Source of the DNA: an uncultured Dehalococcoidia bacterium
GTDB taxonomy: Bacteria > Chloroflexota > Dehalococcoidia > Lucifugimonadales > UBA1123
NCBI GenBank assembly: GCA_958296105.1
Contig: OY282441.1
Span: 1,089,800-1,153,799, forward strand
Direction: 5' to 3'
Length of the DNA: 64,000 bases
Shown here: positions 26,879-40,556 of the stretch, piece by piece
Position numbering within the stretch: position 1 is the first letter of the stretch
Layout of the letters: every line of letters begins with the position of its first letter
The notes under the pieces: model-generated
Database searches by the model: none
What the model was told of the DNA's origin: nothing
What the model saw: the letters and a program-made list of their open reading frames with translations, nothing else
Translations under genes and position numbers: made by a program

Positions 26879-27094
26879 CGCGCCAAGGCAACGCGCCAAG
26901 GCAACGCGCCAAGGCAACGCGCCAAGGCAACGCGCCAAGGCAACGCGCCAAGGCAACGCGCCAAGGCAACGCGCCAAGGCAACGCGCCAAGGCAACGCGC
27001 CAAGGCAACGCGCCAAGGCAACGCGCCAAGGCAACGCGCCAAGGCAACGCGCCAAGGCAACGCGCCAAGGCAACGCGCCAAGGCAACGCGCCAA
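26879..27094. repeat. 13-bp minisatellite, 16 perfect copies
   Basis: Unit CGCGCCAAGGCAA repeats 16 times without a mismatch from 26879 to 27086, followed by a partial unit (27087-27094). Because 13 is not a multiple of 3, all frames stay open through it, producing spurious reading frames on both strands. It occupies the leader of the thioesterase gene and separates it from the divergent enolase-superfamily gene. Confidence 0.97.
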
Positions 27095-28722: not shown

Positions 28723-28744
28723 CGCCGTCTCTCCTTTATCATAT

Positions 28745-28793
28745 GGCGCGGGCATACGGCGCGGGCATACGGCGCGGGCATACGGCGCAGGCA
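28745..28793. repeat. 13-bp tandem repeat, 3 copies plus partial
   Basis: GGCGCGGGCATAC repeated at 28745, 28758 and 28771, then a diverged partial. Shares the CATACGGC core with the array at 63810. No gene lies between 28723 and 28931. Confidence 0.9.
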
Positions 28794-28931: not shown

Positions 28932-29627
28932 ATGCGCGATACCGTTCTGGTAGTAGAAGACGAACCCAACCTGCTCACCGCCCTCAAATACACGCTGGAG
29001 CGGGAGGGTTACAACGCTCTGACCGCCGCCGACGGCGAATCCGGGCTGCGGCTCGCGCGGGAGAGAGACCCCGCCATCGTCATCTTGGACGTCATGCTGC
29101 CCGCGCTGGACGGGTTCGAGGTGTGCCGAATACTCAGGCGGGAATCAGCAGTCCCCATCCTGATGCTGACGGCGCGGGGCGACGAGGTGGACAGGGTGGT
29201 GGGTCTGGAGCTGGGAGCCGACGACTACGTAACCAAGCCGTTCAGCATGAGGGAGCTGCTCGCGCGCATCCGCAACATGCTTCGCCGCTCGTCCGCGCCC
29301 GCTGTGGGCGGCTCGGAGTATCAGGCGGAGGTGATAAGGTCAGGAAACCTGATGATAGACCTCGTTGGCTACTCTGTGACGCTGGACGGCAAGCCTTTGG
29401 AGATGAAACCGCGCGAGTTCTCGCTGATCGCTCTCTTGGCAGGGAACAAGGGACGCGCATTCACCCGCGACCAGATGCTGGAACGGCTGTGGGGACACGA
29501 CTACATCGGAGACTCGCGCACTGTGGACGTGCATGTTAGGTGGCTTCGAGAGAAGATCGAGCTGGATCCATCCAATCCCAAGAGGATCGTGACGATTCGA
29601 GGGGTGGGCTACCGATTCGACGGATGA
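28932..29627 (+). CDS. phoB: Two-component response regulator, PhoB/OmpR type
   Basis: 231 residues. Receiver domain with acidic pocket VVEDEP, phospho-acceptor Asp53 in VILDVMLP, Thr in MLTARG and Lys in VTKPFS. C-terminal winged helix with MKPREFSLIALLAGNKGRAFTRDQML and SRTVDVHVRWLREKIE. Position beside phoR and the pst operon supports PhoB (PhoP in Gram-positive terms). ATG 28932 starts the conserved domain; the ribosome site is weak (CAGG). The kinase ATG overlaps its stop. It should bind the 11-bp repeats at 31869-31929 and 32042-32080. Confidence 0.93.
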   Translation: MRDTVLVVEDEPNLLTALKYTLEREGYNALTAADGESGLRLARERDPAIVILDVMLPALDGFEVCRILRRESAVPILMLTARGDEVDRVVGLELGADDYVTKPFSMRELLARIRNMLRRSSAPAVGGSEYQAEVIRSGNLMIDLVGYSVTLDGKPLEMKPREFSLIALLAGNKGRAFTRDQMLERLWGHDYIGDSRTVDVHVRWLREKIELDPSNPKRIVTIRGVGYRFDG

Positions 29628-30997
29628 GACTCTCCCGCTCCCCGAGCGCGCGAATCGCCATCGTATATGCGGCCCTCGTCACGCTCTTGACGGGGGCGGT
29701 GTGCTTTATGGCGGCAGACGCCGCTGAAGTCACGGGGCCGATTGGCGCAGCTGCGACCGCGACCTTCGTTATTGGGGCAGGCTCGATTGGGCTGACGCTG
29801 TGGATGGGGCGCAGAGCTGCACGGACTATCAGGACGGTGACGGACGCGGCTCGCCATCTGGCGAATGGCGAGCTAGACCACAGGATAGCCGCGCCCGCCT
29901 CGCACGAGAGCCGAGAGCTGGCAGAGTCGTTCAATCGAATGGCAGACCTGTTTCAGGACAGGATGCGCGACCTCGAAGCCGAACAGCGTCTGCTGGCGGT
30001 GGTCATGGAGACGATGGCTGACGGGGTGATAGCTCTCGACGCCAACAACAGGGTGAGGCTGATCAACCGTCCGGCGCAGCGCCTTCTGATGACGGACGCC
30101 CAAGCCACTCATGGCCGCCCGCTGGCGGAGGTGGTGCGCGACTTCGAGGTGCTGGAGGTCGCCACACGCTCGGCGGCGACGCGACAGATTCAGCACGCTG
30201 AGCTAGAGCTCCTGCACCAGCGCAGATTCCTGAGCGTCATCGCCACGCCCATCTCGGCGGACATCGGCGAAGGGGTCTTGCTGACTCTCCAAGACGTGAC
30301 CGATCTCAGGCAGGTGCAGACCACTAGGCGCGAGTTCGTCAGCAACGTGTCCCACGAGCTGCGCAACCCGCTCGCATCGGTTAGCGCGATGGTCGAGATA
30401 CTGGAGAGCGGGGCGATAGACGACCGCGAAGCCACGCTGGACTTCCTCGGGCGCATACAGAACGACGTGGGGCGCATGACCGCGCTGGTGAACGAGCTGC
30501 TGGAGCTTTCCAGCCTAGAGAGCGGTCAGATGCCGATTCACCTTGCCCCCGTGAATCTGGTCGAGGTGGTGGGCGTGGTGGTGGAGCGGTTCAGGCTGAC
30601 GGCGGCTGTCCAAGAGGTCGAGATCGGCCACTGCGTGCCTGCGGACGCGCCCTACGTCATGGCGGAGCGGGCGAAGCTCGGCCAGATTCTCACCAATCTC
30701 ATCGAGAACGCGCTGAGATTCACCCCGCGCGGCGGGCGCGTCACGCTGTCATCGAGCGCAACTGCCAGATGGGTGGAGATCAGGGTCGCCGACAGCGGGG
30801 TGGGCATACCCAGAGAGCATCTGCCCCACGTATTCGAGCGATTCTACAAGGTGGACAGGTCTCGGAGCGACGGCGGGACCGGTCTCGGTCTCGCCATAGT
30901 GAAGCATCTGGTTCAGGCGCACGGCGGCGACGTAACCGCAGCCAGCGCGGAGGGGGAGGGGAGCGTGTTCACGCTAACGCTGAGACGGGCGACGTGA
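29624..30997 (+). CDS. phoR: Phosphate-sensing histidine kinase, PhoR type
   Basis: 457 residues. Two membrane segments (about 10-31 and 42-61) with a very short outer loop, a HAMP domain (62-115), a PAS domain (about 125-230: VMETMADGVIALDANNRVRLINRPAQ), HisKA with His244 in FVSNVSHELRNPLASV, and the HATPase with N box LIENALRF, G1 DSGVGIP, F box FERFYKVDRS and G2 GTGLGLAIVKH. The architecture is that of PhoR. ATGA overlap with phoB means coupled translation. The small sensor loop is typical since phosphate status is read via PstSCAB-PhoU. Confidence 0.93.
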   Translation: MRLSRSPSARIAIVYAALVTLLTGAVCFMAADAAEVTGPIGAAATATFVIGAGSIGLTLWMGRRAARTIRTVTDAARHLANGELDHRIAAPASHESRELAESFNRMADLFQDRMRDLEAEQRLLAVVMETMADGVIALDANNRVRLINRPAQRLLMTDAQATHGRPLAEVVRDFEVLEVATRSAATRQIQHAELELLHQRRFLSVIATPISADIGEGVLLTLQDVTDLRQVQTTRREFVSNVSHELRNPLASVSAMVEILESGAIDDREATLDFLGRIQNDVGRMTALVNELLELSSLESGQMPIHLAPVNLVEVVGVVVERFRLTAAVQEVEIGHCVPADAPYVMAERAKLGQILTNLIENALRFTPRGGRVTLSSSATARWVEIRVADSGVGIPREHLPHVFERFYKVDRSRSDGGTGLGLAIVKHLVQAHGGDVTAASAEGEGSVFTLTLRRAT

Positions 30998-31785
30998 ACT
31001 TCGCCGAAGCGGCTCTGCTCGGGCTGATTCAGGGCGTGGTGGAGTGGCTGCCGATAAGCTCGGAAGGCGTGGTGGCGACGGCTCATACCCTCTTCTTCCA
31101 ATCCTCGCTCGCCGAGTCGGTGTCGTTCTCCCTGTGGCTGCACTTGGGGACGGCGCTTTCGGCGCTTTCGGCGCTGAGAGGCGATGCAGCGGATGCGGTG
31201 CGCGGCGCGCTCGGGCGTCCACTGCGTCCCACGCCGATGGTCGTCTTCCTGACGGTGGCGACGCTGGTCAGCGCGCCCATCGGGTTCTGGCTGCTCACGG
31301 GATTGGAGGGCTTCTCGGAGCGGGCGGGCGCGGCGGCGATGGCAGCCGTGGGCGCGCTGATGCTGGTCACGGGGGCGGCGCTTCTTCTGAGTCGATACAG
31401 CGGAACGCGGACGAGAGACGAACTGACGTGGCTGGATGCGGTCATTACGGGGGCGGCTCAAGGGCTTGCCACGCTTCCCGGTCTGAGCAGATCGGGGCTA
31501 ACCGTGTCTGCGCTGCTGTGGCGCGGGGTGGAGCGTCGCGAGGCGCTGACGCTCAGCTTCCTGCTCAGCGCGCCTGCCAGCCTTGCCGCAGGGCTGTACG
31601 CCGCGCTCGATTCGGGTTTCCACTCCTCGCCCGAGGCGCTGACCGCGCTCGCAGTGTCCACAGCCGCCGGTTTCGTCACCATACGGGCGCTGCTGAGGGC
31701 CGCCGAGCGCGTTCGATTCGGCTGGTTCGTCATTCTGGTGGGCGTGAGCGTCATGGCCAGCGGAATCTTGCAGGCGCTCGTCTGA
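30994..31785 (+). CDS. uppP: Undecaprenyl-diphosphatase-like protein (BacA/UppP family), archaeal-like variant
   Basis: 263 residues, multi-pass membrane protein. Family motif 1 appears as LIQGVVEWLPISSEGVV: Gln13, Glu17 and the SS pair are kept, but the His that follows SSxG in bacterial BacA is Val26, as in the SSEG form seen in archaeal homologues. Motif 2 is LPGLSRSGLTVS with the catalytic Arg. It should release phosphate from undecaprenyl or another polyprenyl diphosphate. GTG 30994 overlaps the phoR stop (GTGA), so it is an integral member of the phoB-phoR operon, linking lipid-carrier phosphate release to phosphate control. Exact substrate is uncertain. Confidence 0.85.
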   Translation: MNFAEAALLGLIQGVVEWLPISSEGVVATAHTLFFQSSLAESVSFSLWLHLGTALSALSALRGDAADAVRGALGRPLRPTPMVVFLTVATLVSAPIGFWLLTGLEGFSERAGAAAMAAVGALMLVTGAALLLSRYSGTRTRDELTWLDAVITGAAQGLATLPGLSRSGLTVSALLWRGVERREALTLSFLLSAPASLAAGLYAALDSGFHSSPEALTALAVSTAAGFVTIRALLRAAERVRFGWFVILVGVSVMASGILQALV

Positions 31786-31868
31786 CGCAGGCAGCTCGGT
31801 CGCGGGGCAGGCATACGGACTGGATCCGGGCGACCGCAAAGCCTGCCCAAACCGTTAACGCTCCCCTC

Positions 31869-31945
31869 GTTAACGAGACTTTCACCGTCTCACAACAGCC
31901 GCTTAACTGCGCGTTAAACGCGCGTTCAACAGCAGGCGGTAGAGT
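31869..31945 (+). promoter_or_regulatory. Upstream Pho-box array with candidate -10
   Basis: Six hexamers at exact 11-bp spacing: GTTAAC (31869), TTTCAC (31880), CACAAC (31891), CTTAAC (31902), GTTAAA (31913), GTTCAA (31924). An out-of-phase GTTAAC is at 31854. TAGAGT (31940-31945) follows the last unit start by 16 bp, the same offset as in the downstream array. The pattern resembles PhoP/PhoB direct repeats (TTAACA or GTTCACC with 11-bp period). Confidence 0.7.
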
Positions 31946-32040
31946 TCCTCCATCCCGAATAGCGGGCATCCCGAATAGCGGGGCGACCGTGCGAGGCTCT
32001 GCAACAGACGATGCGGCGCTCTCCCGCGTTTTCGGGCATG

Positions 32041-32096
32041 TGTTAACGGGCTGTTAAATGTTCGTTCACCGTCGATTAACAGGCGATACATACAAT
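32041..32096 (+). promoter_or_regulatory. Pho-box array and -10 of the pstS promoter
   Basis: Four units of 11 bp: GTTAAC (32042), GTTAAA (32053), GTTCAC (32064), ATTAAC (32075). TACAAT at 32091-32096 is the -10 hexamer, so the last repeats replace a -35 as in activator-dependent Pho promoters. Expected start near 32103, about 11 nt before the ATG. The 328-bp gap 31786-32113 otherwise holds only the upstream array and a short duplicated CCCGAATAGCGGG. Confidence 0.8.
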
Positions 32097-32113
32097 GCTC
32101 CGGAGGATATACG

Positions 32114-33163
32114 ATGGCTATGAAGATATACATTCGCCCCGCGAAAGTGGGCATTCCGGCGCTGTGGCTGCTGGGAATTCTGGCGGGGGCGCTCATCGCG
32201 TCCGCGTGCGGCTCGGCTCAGGCGACATCCGCCGCCGTCTCCGCCCCGACAGCGGCGCCCGCTCCCATGTCTGCCGCCGTCTCTGGCTCGACATCCGCTT
32301 CCGCAGAAGTCGAGCAGCCGCTCGCTCAGCTGAGCGGCACGATAGAGATAGACGGATCCAGCACGGTGTTTCCGATCAGCGAGGCGGTGGCGGAGGAGTT
32401 CGGCAAGGTCGCGCCCGACGTTCACGTCAACGTTGGCGTGTCGGGATCGGGAGGCGGGTTCAAGCGCTTCACCGCAGGCGAAACGGACATATCCGACGCG
32501 TCGAGGCCGATCAGCGACGAGGAGGCCGCCGCCGCCGCCGAGAACGGCATCGGCTACTTGGAGTTTCTGGTTGGGCTGGACGGGCTTTCGGTGATGGTCA
32601 GCCCGCAGAACGACTTCGTGGAGTGCATGACCGTCGAGCAGCTCGAGGCGCTCTGGCAGCCCGGAAGCTCGGTGGACAGCTGGAACGACCTGGATCCAAG
32701 CTGGCCAGAGCGGGGCATCAACCTGTACGGACCCGGCACCGACTCCGGCACGTTCGACTACTTCACGGAGGAGATAGTGGGAGAGATGCAGGCATCGCGC
32801 GCAGACTATACGGCATCGGAGGACGACAACGTTCTGGTGCAGGGCGTCAGTGGAGACCGCAACGCGCTCGGCTACTTCGGATACGCCTACTACGCAGAGA
32901 ACGCGGACAAGCTCAAGCTGGTGGGCGTGGACGCTGGCGATGGCTGTGTGAAGCCCACCATAGACGCCATAGCCAGCGGCGAGTACAAGCCGCTGTCGCG
33001 TCCGCTGTTCATATACGTCAACGAGGAGCGCGTACAGCGGCGCGCCGAGCTTCGCTCGTTCGTGGAGTTCTACATGGAGAACGGCGCAGCTCTCACCCGC
33101 GAGGTCGGCTACGTGCCGCTCAGCGCGGAGGCGTATGCGGACAACGCGGCGCAGCTGAAATAA
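32114..33163 (+). CDS. pstS: Phosphate ABC transporter substrate-binding lipoprotein
   Basis: 349 residues. Signal peptide with lipobox IASAC (Cys32), an Ala/Ser/Thr/Pro-rich tether (33-72), then the binding domain. Phosphate contacts are visible in [22 protein letters not shown] and [15 protein letters not shown] 32114 has GGAGG 7 nt upstream. It sits first in pstSCAB behind two Pho-box arrays, and is followed by a strong hairpin, consistent with high expression under phosphate limitation. Confidence 0.96.
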
Positions 33164-33280
33164 CGGGCGGCTCGCGCGGCGTCCGAGACCGCGAGAGGCT
33201 GGGGGTCGTTCGGGCGGTCCTCGACCCCCAGCTGAAATAACGGGCGGCTCGCGCGGCGTCCGAGACCGCGAGAGGCTGGG
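33152..33280. repeat. 52-bp direct duplication covering the pstS 3' end
   Basis: Bases 33152-33203 (last codons, stop and 38 bp downstream) recur at 33229-33280 with a 77-bp offset and no mismatch. Each copy includes an imperfect CTCGCG...CCGCGAG inverted repeat. Confidence 0.93.
33198..33232 (+). terminator. Strong hairpin between pstS and pstC
   Basis: GCTGGGGGTCG (33198-33208) pairs with CGACCCCCAGC (33222-33232), 11 bp perfect with a 13-nt loop; no T-tract. Likely protects pstS mRNA or attenuates read-through into pstCAB. Confidence 0.6.
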
Positions 33281-33335
33281 AGGCTCGCCGCCCGTCAAGC
33301 TGTATCGGCGAACAGGAATCAGCGGAGGCGATCGG

Positions 33336-34286
33336 TTGGAGACGACAGCGCGGGGAGCGGCGACTGTTCGCGGCGACAGAGCCGCCACTGGCAGATTTCG
33401 GCGCAGGCGCGGCGCAAGCCTGGAAAGCCGAGTGATCTGGTGGGTGTTCTTCCTGTGCGCGATGCTCTCCGTCCTGACGACGGTCGCCATCGTGTTCAGC
33501 CTGCTGAGCCAAGCCTTGAGCTTCTTCAGGGAAGTGGGCGTGTGGGAGTTCATCAGCGGCACGCGCTGGACGCCCATCCTCAAGCCGCGCTCGTATGGCG
33601 TTCTCCCACTGGTCAATGGAACGCTGCTGGTGGCGTTCCTCGCGGCGATAGTGGCGCTTCCCGTAGGCCTCGCCACTGCTATCTTTCTGGCGGAGTACGC
33701 GCCGGACAAGGTGCGCCGAATCATCAAGCCCGCGCTCGAAGTTCTAGCGGGCGTTCCGACGGTGGTGTACGGCTACTTCGCGCTCACCTTCGTGACTCCG
33801 CAGCTTCAGAGGGTCTTTCCGGACATGATCGTGTTCAACGCGCTGAGCGCGGGAATCGTCATGGGCATAATGATCATTCCGATGGTGTCCTCTCTGAGCG
33901 AGGACGCGATGATCAGCGTTCCGCGCTCGCTTCGTCAGGCGGCATACGCGCTGGGCGCGACCAAGCTGGAAACCAGCGTCAAGGTGGTCGTGCCGGCTGC
34001 GCTGTCGGGGATAGTGGCGTCGTTCATCCTGGCGATCTCGCGCGCTATTGGCGAGACGATGCTGGTCACGATAGCGGCGGGGGCTACGCCCAGAATGACA
34101 GCCAACCCGCTCGACAGCATTCAGACTATGACCGCGTACATCGTGCAGCTGGCGCTGGGCGAGGCGGCGCACGGCTCTCTGGAATACAACACGATATTCG
34201 CGGTGGGCTTGCTGCTGTTCGTGATGACGCTGTGCATGAATCTGCTCGGATACTGGGTGGTCCGACGCTGGAGGCAGGCGTACTGA
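33336..34286 (+). CDS. pstC: Phosphate ABC transporter permease
   Basis: 316 residues, six membrane segments. Conserved parts: [55 protein letters not shown] (typical of PstC), EAA loop [25 protein letters not shown] and [13 protein letters not shown] 33336 has GGAGG 7 nt upstream, which favours it over internal starts. Overlaps pstA by one base. Confidence 0.95.
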
Positions 34287-35167
34287 TGGCCAAGTCCAAA
34301 GTCAACTTCGACCCCAGACTGGCGCGGCGCAAGATGATCGGAGGCGTGTTCTACTTCGTGTTCCTGTGCGCCGTCATGGTCGGGATACTCAGCCTCCTCG
34401 TGCTGCTGACGCGCATTCTGATGGAGGGGCTGCCCTGGCTGAGCTTGGGCTTCCTCACCAACTACCCCTCGCGCCACCCGGAGATCGCCGGGATCCGCTC
34501 GGCAATGATGGGTACGATCTGGGTCATGGCGCTGACGGCGCTGTTCACGGTGCCCGTCGGCGTGGGCGCCGCCATATATCTGGAGGAGTACGCCCCGAAG
34601 AACCGACTGACTCAGCTAATCGAGATCAACATATCCAACCTCGCCGGCGTGCCGTCCATCGTGTACGGGCTGCTGGGGTGGGCGCTGTTCGTGCAGATCA
34701 TGTCCATGGGGCGCGTGGTGCTGGCGGGCGCGCTGACGCTCTCGCTGCTGGTGCTTCCCATCGTGATCCTCGCCTCGCGCGAGGCGATCAGGGCCGTCCC
34801 AAACGAGTACAGACTGGGGGCTTTCGCTCTCGGAGCCGACCAGTGGCAGGTCATCAAAGGCGCGGTGCTGCCGTCCGCTATTCCGGGGATACTCACGGGA
34901 ACCATACTGGCGCTGTCTCGCGCCATAGGGGAGGCGGCGCCGGTGATCGCCATAAGCGCGCTGGTGTACCTGACCTTCGTCCCCGCCGATCCGTTCGACC
35001 AGTTCACGGTAATGCCAATCCAGATATTCAACTGGGTGGGCAGACCGCAGGACGACTTCCAATCGCTGGCGGCAGCGGGGATAATCGTACTGCTCGCCAT
35101 ACTGCTGACGATGAACGCGCTGGCAGTAATCTTGCGAAACAGGTATCAGACCAGATCCGAGGACTGA
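34286..35167 (+). CDS. pstA: Phosphate ABC transporter permease
   Basis: 293 residues, partner of PstC. Segments [59 protein letters not shown] and [12 protein letters not shown] are diagnostic for PstA. ATG 34286 shares its A with the pstC stop (TGATG) and has GGAGGCAGG upstream, so it is coupled to pstC. The frame is open far upstream but only as out-of-frame pstC sequence. Confidence 0.95.
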
Positions 35168-35168
35168 C

Positions 35169-35942
35169 TTGAACGACGACGCTCCGATCTTCGAGGTCTC
35201 CAGCCTCAGCCTCTACTACGACGACTTCAGGGCGCTGAAGGACATAGACATGGAGATCAGGCGGTACGCGATAACCGCGCTGATCGGGCCGTCCGGCTGC
35301 GGAAAGAGTACGCTGCTGCGCTGCTTCAACCGCATGAACGATCTCATTCCAACGGCGCGAATCGAGGGGCGGATACTCTTCGAAGGCTCGGACCTGTACC
35401 ACCCCGACGTGGACGCCACGGAGATAAGGTCGCGCATAGGCATGGTGTTCCAGCGACCGAATCCGTTTCCCAAGTCGATCTACGACAACGTGGCGTTCGG
35501 TCTGAAGATCAACGGCTACCGTGGCGACATAGACGAGGCGATAGAGCGCTCGCTGAGGCAGGCGGCGCTGTGGGACGAGGTGAAGGACCGGCTCAAAGAC
35601 AGCGCGCTGGAGCTGTCCGGCGGCCAGCAGCAGCGGCTGTGCATCGCGCGCGCGCTGGCGGTGGAGCCTGAAGTCATACTCATGGACGAGCCGGCGTCCG
35701 CGCTCGACCCGATCGCCACTCTCGCAATCGAAGAGCTGGTGCGCGAGCTGAGCGAGAGCTACACCATCGTCATAGTCACTCACAACATGCAGCAAGCCGC
35801 GCGCGTCTCCCACGAGACGGCCTTTCTGATGGCGGGGGAAGACCGCTCCGGATACCTCGTAGAACACGGCGCTACCAGCCAGATATTCACCACGCCCAAG
35901 AGCGAGCGCACCGAGGCGTACATCACGGGAAGATTCAGCTAA
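35169..35942 (+). CDS. pstB: Phosphate ABC transporter ATP-binding protein
   Basis: 257 residues. Walker [22 protein letters not shown]-loop [18 protein letters not shown] (PstB hallmark), signature [10 protein letters not shown], Walker [14 protein letters not shown] and switch His in [11 protein letters not shown] 35169 lies 1 nt after the pstA stop with GAGG upstream. Completes PstSCAB. Confidence 0.97.
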
Positions 35943-36103
35943 TGTGGATTCTCAGGGGCGCTCCCCGCCAAGCGAGTGTCGGCTTTCGCACGGACGCGCG
36001 CAGATGGACAGGATGGGTCGAATCGTCAGCGGCGGCTCGCGCGGCGACATCCTGAACATCCTGTGAATCTACGCCAACTATGTGGTGGAGGGTGAAGACA
36101 ACA

Positions 36104-36769
36104 ATGCTCCGTTCCGAATATCACAGAGACCTCAGATCCCTCGAAGACGACCTGCTGGCGCTCGGCAGCATGGTCGAAAAGGCGATTGCCAAGTCTCTCG
36201 ACGCGCTCAAGAACCGCGACATGGCTCTGGCGGAACAGGTCATAGAGGAGGACGACGTCATCGACGAAAAGCGCTTCTCCCTAGAGGAGCAGTGCATAGA
36301 CCTGATCGCCACTCAGCAGCCGCTCGCAAGCGATCTGCGCACGCTCATAACGGTCTTGCACGTCTCGGTGGAGCTGGAGCGGATGGGCGACTACGCGGAG
36401 GGCATCGCCAAGATCAGCGTAGCGATGGGCGACGAGCCGCCGCTGAAGCCGCTCATAGACATTCCCAGAATGGCGGACCGCTGCATGGACATGCTCAGGC
36501 GCAGCCTAGATGCCTTCGTCAACAGGGACACGGCGGAGGCGTACCAGATATGCGATGACGACGACGAGGTGGACGCGCTCTACGATCAGGTCTACCGCGA
36601 GCTTCTGGTGTACATGATGACCGACCCGAGCGCCATACGCCGCGCCACGTATCTGCTGTGGGTGGCGCACGACATCGAGCGCATCGCCGACCGCGCCACC
36701 AACATAGCCGAGCGTGTGGTGTTCCTCGTCACGGGGCGGCTGACGGACACGCGGGCTTCCACCTACTGA
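36104..36769 (+). CDS. phoU: Phosphate signalling protein PhoU
   Basis: 221 residues, two three-helix repeats. Both metal-binding motifs of the E/D-x-x-x-D type are present: ELERMGDYAEGIAK near residue 95 and HDIERIADRATNIAE near residue 195. PhoU links PstB to PhoR and represses the regulon when phosphate is plentiful. ATG 36104 has GGAGGGTG 10 nt upstream; ATG 36080 has no ribosome site and is rejected. The 161-bp gap after pstB contains only small inverted CAGGATG/CATCCTG words. Confidence 0.95.
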   Translation: MLRSEYHRDLRSLEDDLLALGSMVEKAIAKSLDALKNRDMALAEQVIEEDDVIDEKRFSLEEQCIDLIATQQPLASDLRTLITVLHVSVELERMGDYAEGIAKISVAMGDEPPLKPLIDIPRMADRCMDMLRRSLDAFVNRDTAEAYQICDDDDEVDALYDQVYRELLVYMMTDPSAIRRATYLLWVAHDIERIADRATNIAERVVFLVTGRLTDTRASTY

Positions 36770-39046: not shown

Positions 39047-39964
39047 ATGTGGATTCCAAACTCTGATGAGAGGGAGGACATCATCTTGTCCATACCAGAA
39101 TCACAACTCGGCAGGTGGTCAGATCACGGATCGCAGGACGCAGCCAAGCGCACCCATGAAGAGATTCGGAGGATTTTAGCCGCCCACACGTGGCCCCCGG
39201 GTGTAAGATACGATTTCTACCTTCAGGGTTCGTACCAGAATGACACCAATATCGGAGGCGGCAGCGACGTCGACGCGGTGTTGGAATTGAAATCAACGGT
39301 TCACTACGACACGGAATCTCTTACCGCACGGGACCGCCAAAGGCTCGAATCGACATTTTCACCGCCTGCCTATGGTTGGAACCACTTCAGACGAGAGGCG
39401 CTCAAGGTACTGGAGCAGAGGCTCGGCAGTAGATTTGTGGGACAGGGCAACAAGACCATCAAAGTGAAGGCACATCGCCAACGCCTAGCCGCGGATGTAG
39501 TCATCTGCTCTACACTCCGCCGCCACACGAGCTACAGCGAATATGTGGAAGGCATAACTCTGTATGCGTTACAGGACAAGCGGTGGATAGTCAACTATCC
39601 CAAGCTGCACTATGAAAACAACACGGCAAAGGGCAGAAGAACCTTTGATCGTTACAAACGGACTGTACGGATGTTCAAGAATGCGAGGAACTGCCTGGAA
39701 TCCGACGGTCGTATTCGTCGAGGTCTGGCACCCTCGTACTTCGTTGAGTGTCTCCTGTATAATGCCCCAGACGATACGTTCAAGTCTGGATTTCAGGATA
39801 CCTACTGTTCAATCGTCAATTGGATGGTAAGCGCAAACCTCGAAAATCTAGTCTGCCAGCACGGTCAGCAACGCCTATTTGGGACACGTCCCGAACAGTG
39901 GTCAGTATCGGATGCCAAGACATTCTCGAATGGATTGGCAGATCTGTGGAACAAGTGGGACTGA
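39047..39964 (+). CDS. CBASS CD-NTase (cyclic oligonucleotide synthase)
   Basis: 305 residues of the polymerase-beta/OAS nucleotidyltransferase superfamily. Active site: LQGSYQNDTNIGGGSDVDAV, with Gly61-Ser62 and catalytic Asp74 and Asp76, and the third carboxylate Asp150 in LAADVVICSTL. The C-terminal helical part (RTFDRYKRTVRMFKNARN...APSYFVECLLYNAPDD) is the OAS1-C-like half seen in CD-NTases. On phage infection such enzymes make cyclic di- or trinucleotides. The effector follows 10 nt after the stop. Composition is visibly AT-richer than the flanks. ATG 39047 lacks a strong ribosome site. Clade and product cannot be set by eye. Confidence 0.88.
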   Translation: MWIPNSDEREDIILSIPESQLGRWSDHGSQDAAKRTHEEIRRILAAHTWPPGVRYDFYLQGSYQNDTNIGGGSDVDAVLELKSTVHYDTESLTARDRQRLESTFSPPAYGWNHFRREALKVLEQRLGSRFVGQGNKTIKVKAHRQRLAADVVICSTLRRHTSYSEYVEGITLYALQDKRWIVNYPKLHYENNTAKGRRTFDRYKRTVRMFKNARNCLESDGRIRRGLAPSYFVECLLYNAPDDTFKSGFQDTYCSIVNWMVSANLENLVCQHGQQRLFGTRPEQWSVSDAKTFSNGLADLWNKWD

Positions 39965-39974
39965 CTCGTTAGCG

Positions 39975-40556
39975 ATGCATTCGTATGAAATCGAGGGGCG
40001 AAAAGGGGTGTTCATCATCCTTGCCACCCCCAGCTTCTTGCTGGTCTGGCTGGTTGACTTTACATCGAAGGCTGTGGGAATTGATCCTCCTTGGTGGATA
40101 ACAACTCCTTCCTTCGCAGGCTTCTATTCCGTCCTCCATATGCTGTTCGACCGTTACATCTGGCGTTCGAAGATTCTGCATCGAGTAGGACTTATCAAAG
40201 TCCCCAACCTCAACGGAAAATGGAAGGGAGCAATTCGGTCGTCTTATAGTCATAATGGATCAGAGCGGCCAGTGTCCGTTGTCATAACCCAGAGGTGGTC
40301 CAAGATTCTGATAAGGCTCGACAGCGCCGACTCGCACTCGTATAGCGAGTCGGCGACTCTGCGAAGCGCTGATCCTGACGCGCCCGAATTGGCCTATCTA
40401 TACTTGAACGAACCTAAGACAGGCGCCGTGGACTCAATGGCTATGCACAGGGGTACAGCCATAATGCGTCTGAGAGAGTCGGCGCTCGCAGGCAACTACT
40501 ACACGGATAGAGGCCGAAGGGAGATAGGGACTATCAGGCTGACTCGACGAGAGTGA
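39975..40556 (+). CDS. cap15: CBASS effector Cap15 (two TM helices plus beta-barrel)
   Basis: 193 residues. Two membrane helices (about 11-29 and 41-60) precede a lipocalin-like beta-barrel domain beginning VPNLNGKWKGAIRSSYSHNG, continuing VVITQRWSKILIRLDS, and closing AGNYYTDRGRREIGTIRL. That order and the terminal G-x-Y-x-x-x-R-G-R-x-x-G-T-I strand are the Cap15 pattern. Known Cap15 proteins bind the CD-NTase product through the barrel, oligomerise in the inner membrane and break it, killing the infected cell. Ten nt from the CD-NTase, same composition; no Cap2/Cap3 or SAVED genes, so a type I CBASS. Confidence 0.85.
   Translation: MHSYEIEGRKGVFIILATPSFLLVWLVDFTSKAVGIDPPWWITTPSFAGFYSVLHMLFDRYIWRSKILHRVGLIKVPNLNGKWKGAIRSSYSHNGSERPVSVVITQRWSKILIRLDSADSHSYSESATLRSADPDAPELAYLYLNEPKTGAVDSMAMHRGTAIMRLRESALAGNYYTDRGRREIGTIRLTRRE

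Follow-up and report, generated by a model that had tools for sequence, protein, structure and literature searches.

Two 11-bp repeat arrays with fixed -10 offsets suggest tandem PhoB-activated promoters upstream of the pst operon in an uncultured Dehalococcoidia bacterium

In an uncultured Dehalococcoidia bacterium (GCA_958296105.1), the gene for the phosphate-binding lipoprotein PstS is preceded by two separate arrays of short direct repeats, which raises the question of whether the operon is served by two tandem phosphate-starvation promoters, as a first-pass annotation had proposed. The window analyzed is a 64-kb stretch of contig OY282441.1 (positions 1,089,800-1,153,799, forward strand); coordinates are those of the window unless given as genome positions, and the genes and promoter elements of the locus are on the plus strand. 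The gene order is phoB-phoR-uppP, then the arrays, then pstSCAB-phoU. The phoB-type response regulator gene (28932-29627) is followed by a phoR-type sensor kinase gene with HAMP, PAS, HisKA and HATPase domains (29624-30997), its start picked at an ATGA overlap with phoB, and by uppP/bacA for undecaprenyl-diphosphatase (31009-31785, the first base being the start of the BacA domain; PF02673, 6.7e-46). The placement of uppP/bacA between phoR and the pst arrays is also kept in G001, G003 and G006. Downstream of the arrays, pstS (32114-33163; ATG at 32114, with its ribosome-binding site GGAGG at 32102-32106) scores 288.2 bits against TIGR02136 (cut-off 206.6), and pstC (33336-34286; TIGR02138), pstA (34280-35167; TIGR00974), pstB (35169-35942; TIGR00972) and phoU (36080-36769; TIGR02135) also score above their cut-offs. 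The two things expected of a Pho box in its surroundings, phosphate-acquisition genes downstream and a PhoBR pair in the genome, are both present. Adjoining the phosphate locus, 39047-40556 holds a short CBASS anti-phage system made up of a CD-NTase (PADLOC cyclase, 3.5e-98) and, after it, a Cap15 effector (PF18153, 4.6e-29).

The PhoB-type regulator, the presumed binder of the arrays, consists of a receiver and an OmpR-type winged helix (Pfam Response_reg and Trans_reg_C). It scores 225.6 bits against the PhoB model TIGR02154, under the equivalog cut-off of 296.2, so the name PhoB rests on neighbourhood and domain make-up. The closest solved chain is RegX3 (2oqr; phmmer 4.6e-66), with whose DNA-binding domain that of the regulator aligns well, and a RTVDVHxRxLR stretch presumably corresponds to a similar one in E. 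coli PhoB. The OmpR-type DNA-binding domain PF00486 occurs in only two proteins of the genome, this regulator and a GlnR-like protein. We considered autoregulation of phoB and rejected it, the region upstream of phoB being without an array. That region does hold a 13-bp tandem repeat, CATACGGCGCGGG, in 4.2 copies (28740-28793), and a perfect 13-bp tandem repeat, CGCGCCAAGGCAA, runs for 16.6 copies at 26879-27094 with several frames open.

Direct reading of 31850-32120 bore out the annotated pattern of GTTAAC-like hexamers, six and then four, with neighbouring units exactly 11 bp apart throughout both arrays. Array 1 (31869-31929) contains six putative PhoB half-sites: GTTAAC (31869), TTTCAC (31880), CACAAC (31891), CTTAAC (31902), GTTAAA (31913) and GTTCAA (31924). 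Array 2 (32042-32080) contains four, GTTAAC (32042), GTTAAA (32053), GTTCAC (32064) and ATTAAC (32075), and has the better-preserved units of the two. The pattern [ACG]TT[AC]A[AC] is matched exactly by eight of the ten units, TTTCAC being off by one base and CACAAC by two. CACAAC, the third unit of array 1, is degenerate, with a score of 1.0 against 7.3-10 for the other nine. The ten units, nine of them near consensus, thus have the 6-7 nt core, direct orientation and 11-bp period of Pho boxes. An extra GTTAAC (31854-31859) lies 15 bp upstream of array 1, out of the 11-bp register.

Both arrays far exceed what is expected by chance. By a simple unit score they reach 24.0 (array 1) and 23.5 (array 2), whereas the best runs in 150 third-order Markov sequences of 64 kb averaged 9.0 and peaked at 14.0; in the real window, the highest score at any other period tried (8-10 and 12-15) was likewise 14.0. 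Across the 3.18-Mb genome, the four-unit pattern with up to three mismatches was found at 14 places, against one for the reversed control, and array 2 was its sole exact match. A pattern of three units plus TAnnnT at +16 had exactly two perfect matches in the genome, arrays 1 and 2; a Markov genome gave no match with two mismatches or fewer and about two when three were allowed.

The two -10-like hexamers, TAGAGT (31940-31945, predicted for promoter P1) and TACAAT (32091-32096, predicted for P2), were said to follow the last unit of each array by 16 bp. This is correct when counted from the start of that unit; the gap from its end is 10 bp in both cases. They are the only TAnnnT hexamers within the 328-bp intergenic region. 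Neither is paired with a -35 hexamer, and no sigma70 -35/-10 pair was found in 31600-33400. Each array therefore has the layout of a PhoB-activated sigma70-type promoter, in which the array replaces the -35 element and the -10 element begins at +16.

We then asked how far this arrangement extends, using PstS relatives from Chloroflexota and beyond, whose 700 bp of upstream DNA were scored with orientation corrected. Arrays of this unit with an 11-bp period, 3-6 units long, precede most pstS genes in the Dehalococcoidia/SAR202 sample; a minority of the sampled pstS genes, many in AT-rich genomes, have none. When 49 non-redundant pstS-upstream arrays, including the two of this window, were aligned on their last unit, TAnnnT occurred at +16 in 22 (20 of 47 without the window's two). 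The next most frequent offsets were +27 (9 arrays), +38 (6), +28 (6) and +30 (4), most others having 0-2. We infer that the peaks at +27 and +38, one and two units further on, reflect arrays whose last one or two units were too weak for the scorer to include. This conservation of the offset is the strongest evidence that an array and its -10 element probably act as one functional unit.

The same sample bears on the number of units. Most of the Chloroflexota pstS loci sampled have one array, of the usual four units; five to six units are also found, six having been seen in L129 and G001. Within the genus, G001 has a single six-unit array directly after uppP with an identical TAGAGT, like P1, and G002 and G003 have a single four-unit array each, with TAACCT. 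L134 (5 and 4 units) and L052 (4 and 4) have two arrays apiece, and every one of these is followed by TAnnnT at +16. The doubling is thus not kept within the genus and has at least two parallels elsewhere. The annotation had called ten units before one gene unusually many, and ten is indeed at the upper end of the range; it is not unique, however, since the doubled layout arose or persisted elsewhere. The surrounding intergenic DNA gives no reliable alignment between species, so the orthology of individual arrays rests on position and -10 sequence. In G003 (L168, 5979-8111, numbered on the reverse-complemented strand), a single open frame of 711 residues carries two tandem PstS domains, an apparent PstS-PstS fusion.

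The operon context, the recurrence of the arrays upstream of pstS across Chloroflexota, the conserved -10 element at +16 and the identical spacing in E. coli phoA and pstS all support the annotation's proposal of two tandem phosphate-starvation promoters, and we put the probability that P1 and P2, both PhoB-activated, drive pstSCAB-phoU at about 0.83. Under phosphate limitation the neighbouring PhoR would phosphorylate PhoB, and PhoB~P would bind the 11-bp repeats head to tail, array 1 taking as many as three dimers and array 2 two. PhoB on the last unit would replace the missing -35 element through contact with sigma region 4, allowing RNA polymerase to open the DNA at TAGAGT and TACAAT. A PhoB-activated sigma70-type promoter is induced by phosphate limitation and starts transcription about 7 nt after the -10 element. 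With this usual spacing, P1 is predicted to start at about 31952 and P2 at about 32103 (range about 32102-32104), giving leaders of about 160 nt and 10-12 nt, respectively. Because no plus-strand terminator was found in 31600-33400, and hence none between P1 and pstS, transcripts from P1 are expected to continue across array 2 and into pstS. The presumed P1 leader contains two exact 16-bp tandem copies of CATCCCGAATAGCGGG (31951-31982); the CCCGAATAGCGGG pair, a local duplication, is not repeated exactly anywhere else in the window. An RNA element in this leader was considered and rejected, there being no Rfam match of note and a fold no better than that of shuffled sequences (z -0.26).

A potential concern with two working promoters is the position of the P2 start, which is predicted to fall at or within GGAGG (32102-32106), so that the transcript could be poorly translated. 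It is possible, if on the unlikely side, that there is a single working promoter, with P1 making the translatable message and array 2 left as a PhoB site that is modulatory, redundant or in decay; the roles of the two could also be exchanged. The doubt over translation of the P2 message is what keeps this reading in contention, and the single arrays of G001, G002 and G003 fit it as well: with no doubled layout in these congeners, one of the two arrays here might be redundant. It is opposed by array 2 itself, which combines the best-preserved units with a perfect +16 TACAAT, and by the doubled arrays of L134 and L052, where the recurrence of both -10 elements suggests that selection keeps both. 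We also entertain, as a rather improbable elaboration of two working promoters, a graded device in which P2 would supply a nearly leaderless message with its 5' end at or in the ribosome-binding site and P1, served by the larger array of six units, a long-leader, well-translated one. The depth of phosphate stress would then alter how much pst mRNA is made and how well it can be translated.

The identity of the binding protein is a separate matter. A GlnR-like protein of the OmpR family might bind the arrays also or instead of PhoB and so couple pst to nitrogen status. GlnR boxes, of the form GTnAC-n6-GTnAC, likewise have an 11-bp period (PMC10704036), and the genome encodes a GlnR-like winged-helix protein (genome 2107933-2108535, minus strand) with no receiver domain recognisable in Pfam, which looks like an orphan GlnR. 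The same genome has a four-unit GTAAC-type array upstream of glnA. The cores differ, however: the glnA site is mostly GTAAC, whereas the pst units are TTAAC or TTCAC and so lack the GTnAC core that, with its 6-nt spacer, defines the GlnR box. In addition, phoB adjoins pst, and TTAAC arrays go with pstS across families. We consider control of the pst arrays by GlnR very unlikely. The glnA-upstream site itself (G000:C1:2288924-2288961; L013, 1501-1538), about 0.4 kb from the gene, has one TTAAC and three GTAAC units 11 bp apart and agrees with the actinobacterial GlnR box. Finally, tandem repeats do occur nearby (16-bp at 31951-31982, 13-bp at 26879-27094), and yet chance or non-regulatory repeats of a minisatellite-like kind that merely resemble Pho boxes are scarcely credible here, given that the hexamer alone repeats and the spacer does not, that the expectation by chance is essentially nil, and that arrays with the -10 offset recur in relatives whose intergenic DNA does not align.

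The annotation had suggested a genome scan to define the regulon. The signature of an array with its -10 element marks two candidate regulon genes elsewhere in the genome, and perhaps a third. It was found (G000:C1:1857227-1857280, minus strand; L005, L186) upstream of a CBS-domain gene for a 129-residue protein, where the array and TAnnnT at +16 are also present in the same-genus and same-family genomes G001, G004, G005, G006 and G007. The regulator of the CBS gene is uncertain because PhoB-like and GlnR-like cores are mixed in its array, some units being TGTAACA, which is intermediate between the two types. An array also lies upstream of a gene for a 67-residue, zinc-ribbon-like protein with two CxxC pairs (genome 1037727-1037764, minus strand), and G002, G003, G004, G005 and G007 have arrays there as well, where TAnnnT follows at +16 or a further unit downstream. 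Array and gene together span G000:C1:1037476-1037764 (minus strand; L007, L195), and the protein is 91% identical in two same-genus genomes. A weaker signature (genome 79844-79897, minus strand) precedes a MIP channel gene and is shared only with G002 among four relatives tested.

We regard the locus as a well-preserved representative of a familiar type of switch, with a doubled layout that is only occasional in relatives. What it offers is a testable definition of the Pho promoter for uncultured Chloroflexota (SAR202/Dehalococcoidia relatives): TTMAC units at 11 bp and TAnnnT at +16. With such a definition the phosphate regulon becomes readable from sequence in organisms without genetics, and it points already to the zinc-ribbon-like and CBS-domain proteins with their conserved arrays. 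Our literature search found no published study of Pho boxes in Chloroflexi, which does not exclude one.

The arrangement can be compared with related systems. A PHO box consists of two 11-nt repeat units (PMC4415409). The PHO boxes of Streptomyces PhoP are 11-nt direct repeat units of the GTTCACC type (PMC4415409, PMC6988585), and the unit at 32064 here reads GTTCACC; the pstS genes of S. lividans and S. coelicolor have two such units in tandem (PMC2605767), compared with six and four here. Actinomycete GlnR boxes share the 11-bp period and the OmpR-family winged helix of the presumed binder, but have a GTnAC core and accompany nitrogen genes, which fits the glnA-upstream site and not the pst arrays. 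In other Chloroflexota arrays (for example L134, L052, L129 and G001), unit, period, -10 offset and target gene are all as here. In E. coli MG1655, phoA reads CTGTCATAAAGTTGTCAC GGCCGAGACT TATAGT and pstS reads CTGTCATAAAACTGTCATATTCCTTACATATAACTGTCAC CTGTTTGTCC TATTTT, the last unit TGTCAC (the counterpart of GTTCAC) being separated by 10 bp from TATAGT and TATTTT, respectively, so that counted from TGTCAC the -10 element starts at +16 in both. In E. coli, too, head-to-tail 11-bp units stand where the -35 element would be, and the third of the four units at its pstS is weak (CTGTCAT/CTGTCAT/CTTACAT/CTGTCAC), as in several of the Chloroflexota arrays. The two differ in the unit, TGTCA there and TTAAC or TTCAC here, and in the presence here of two full modules of array and -10 element before one gene, the larger having six units. 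Spacing of the pho box to the core promoter is strict (PMC10294691), and the arrays described here extend the strict spacing of E. coli PhoB sites to the -10 element to a distant phylum.
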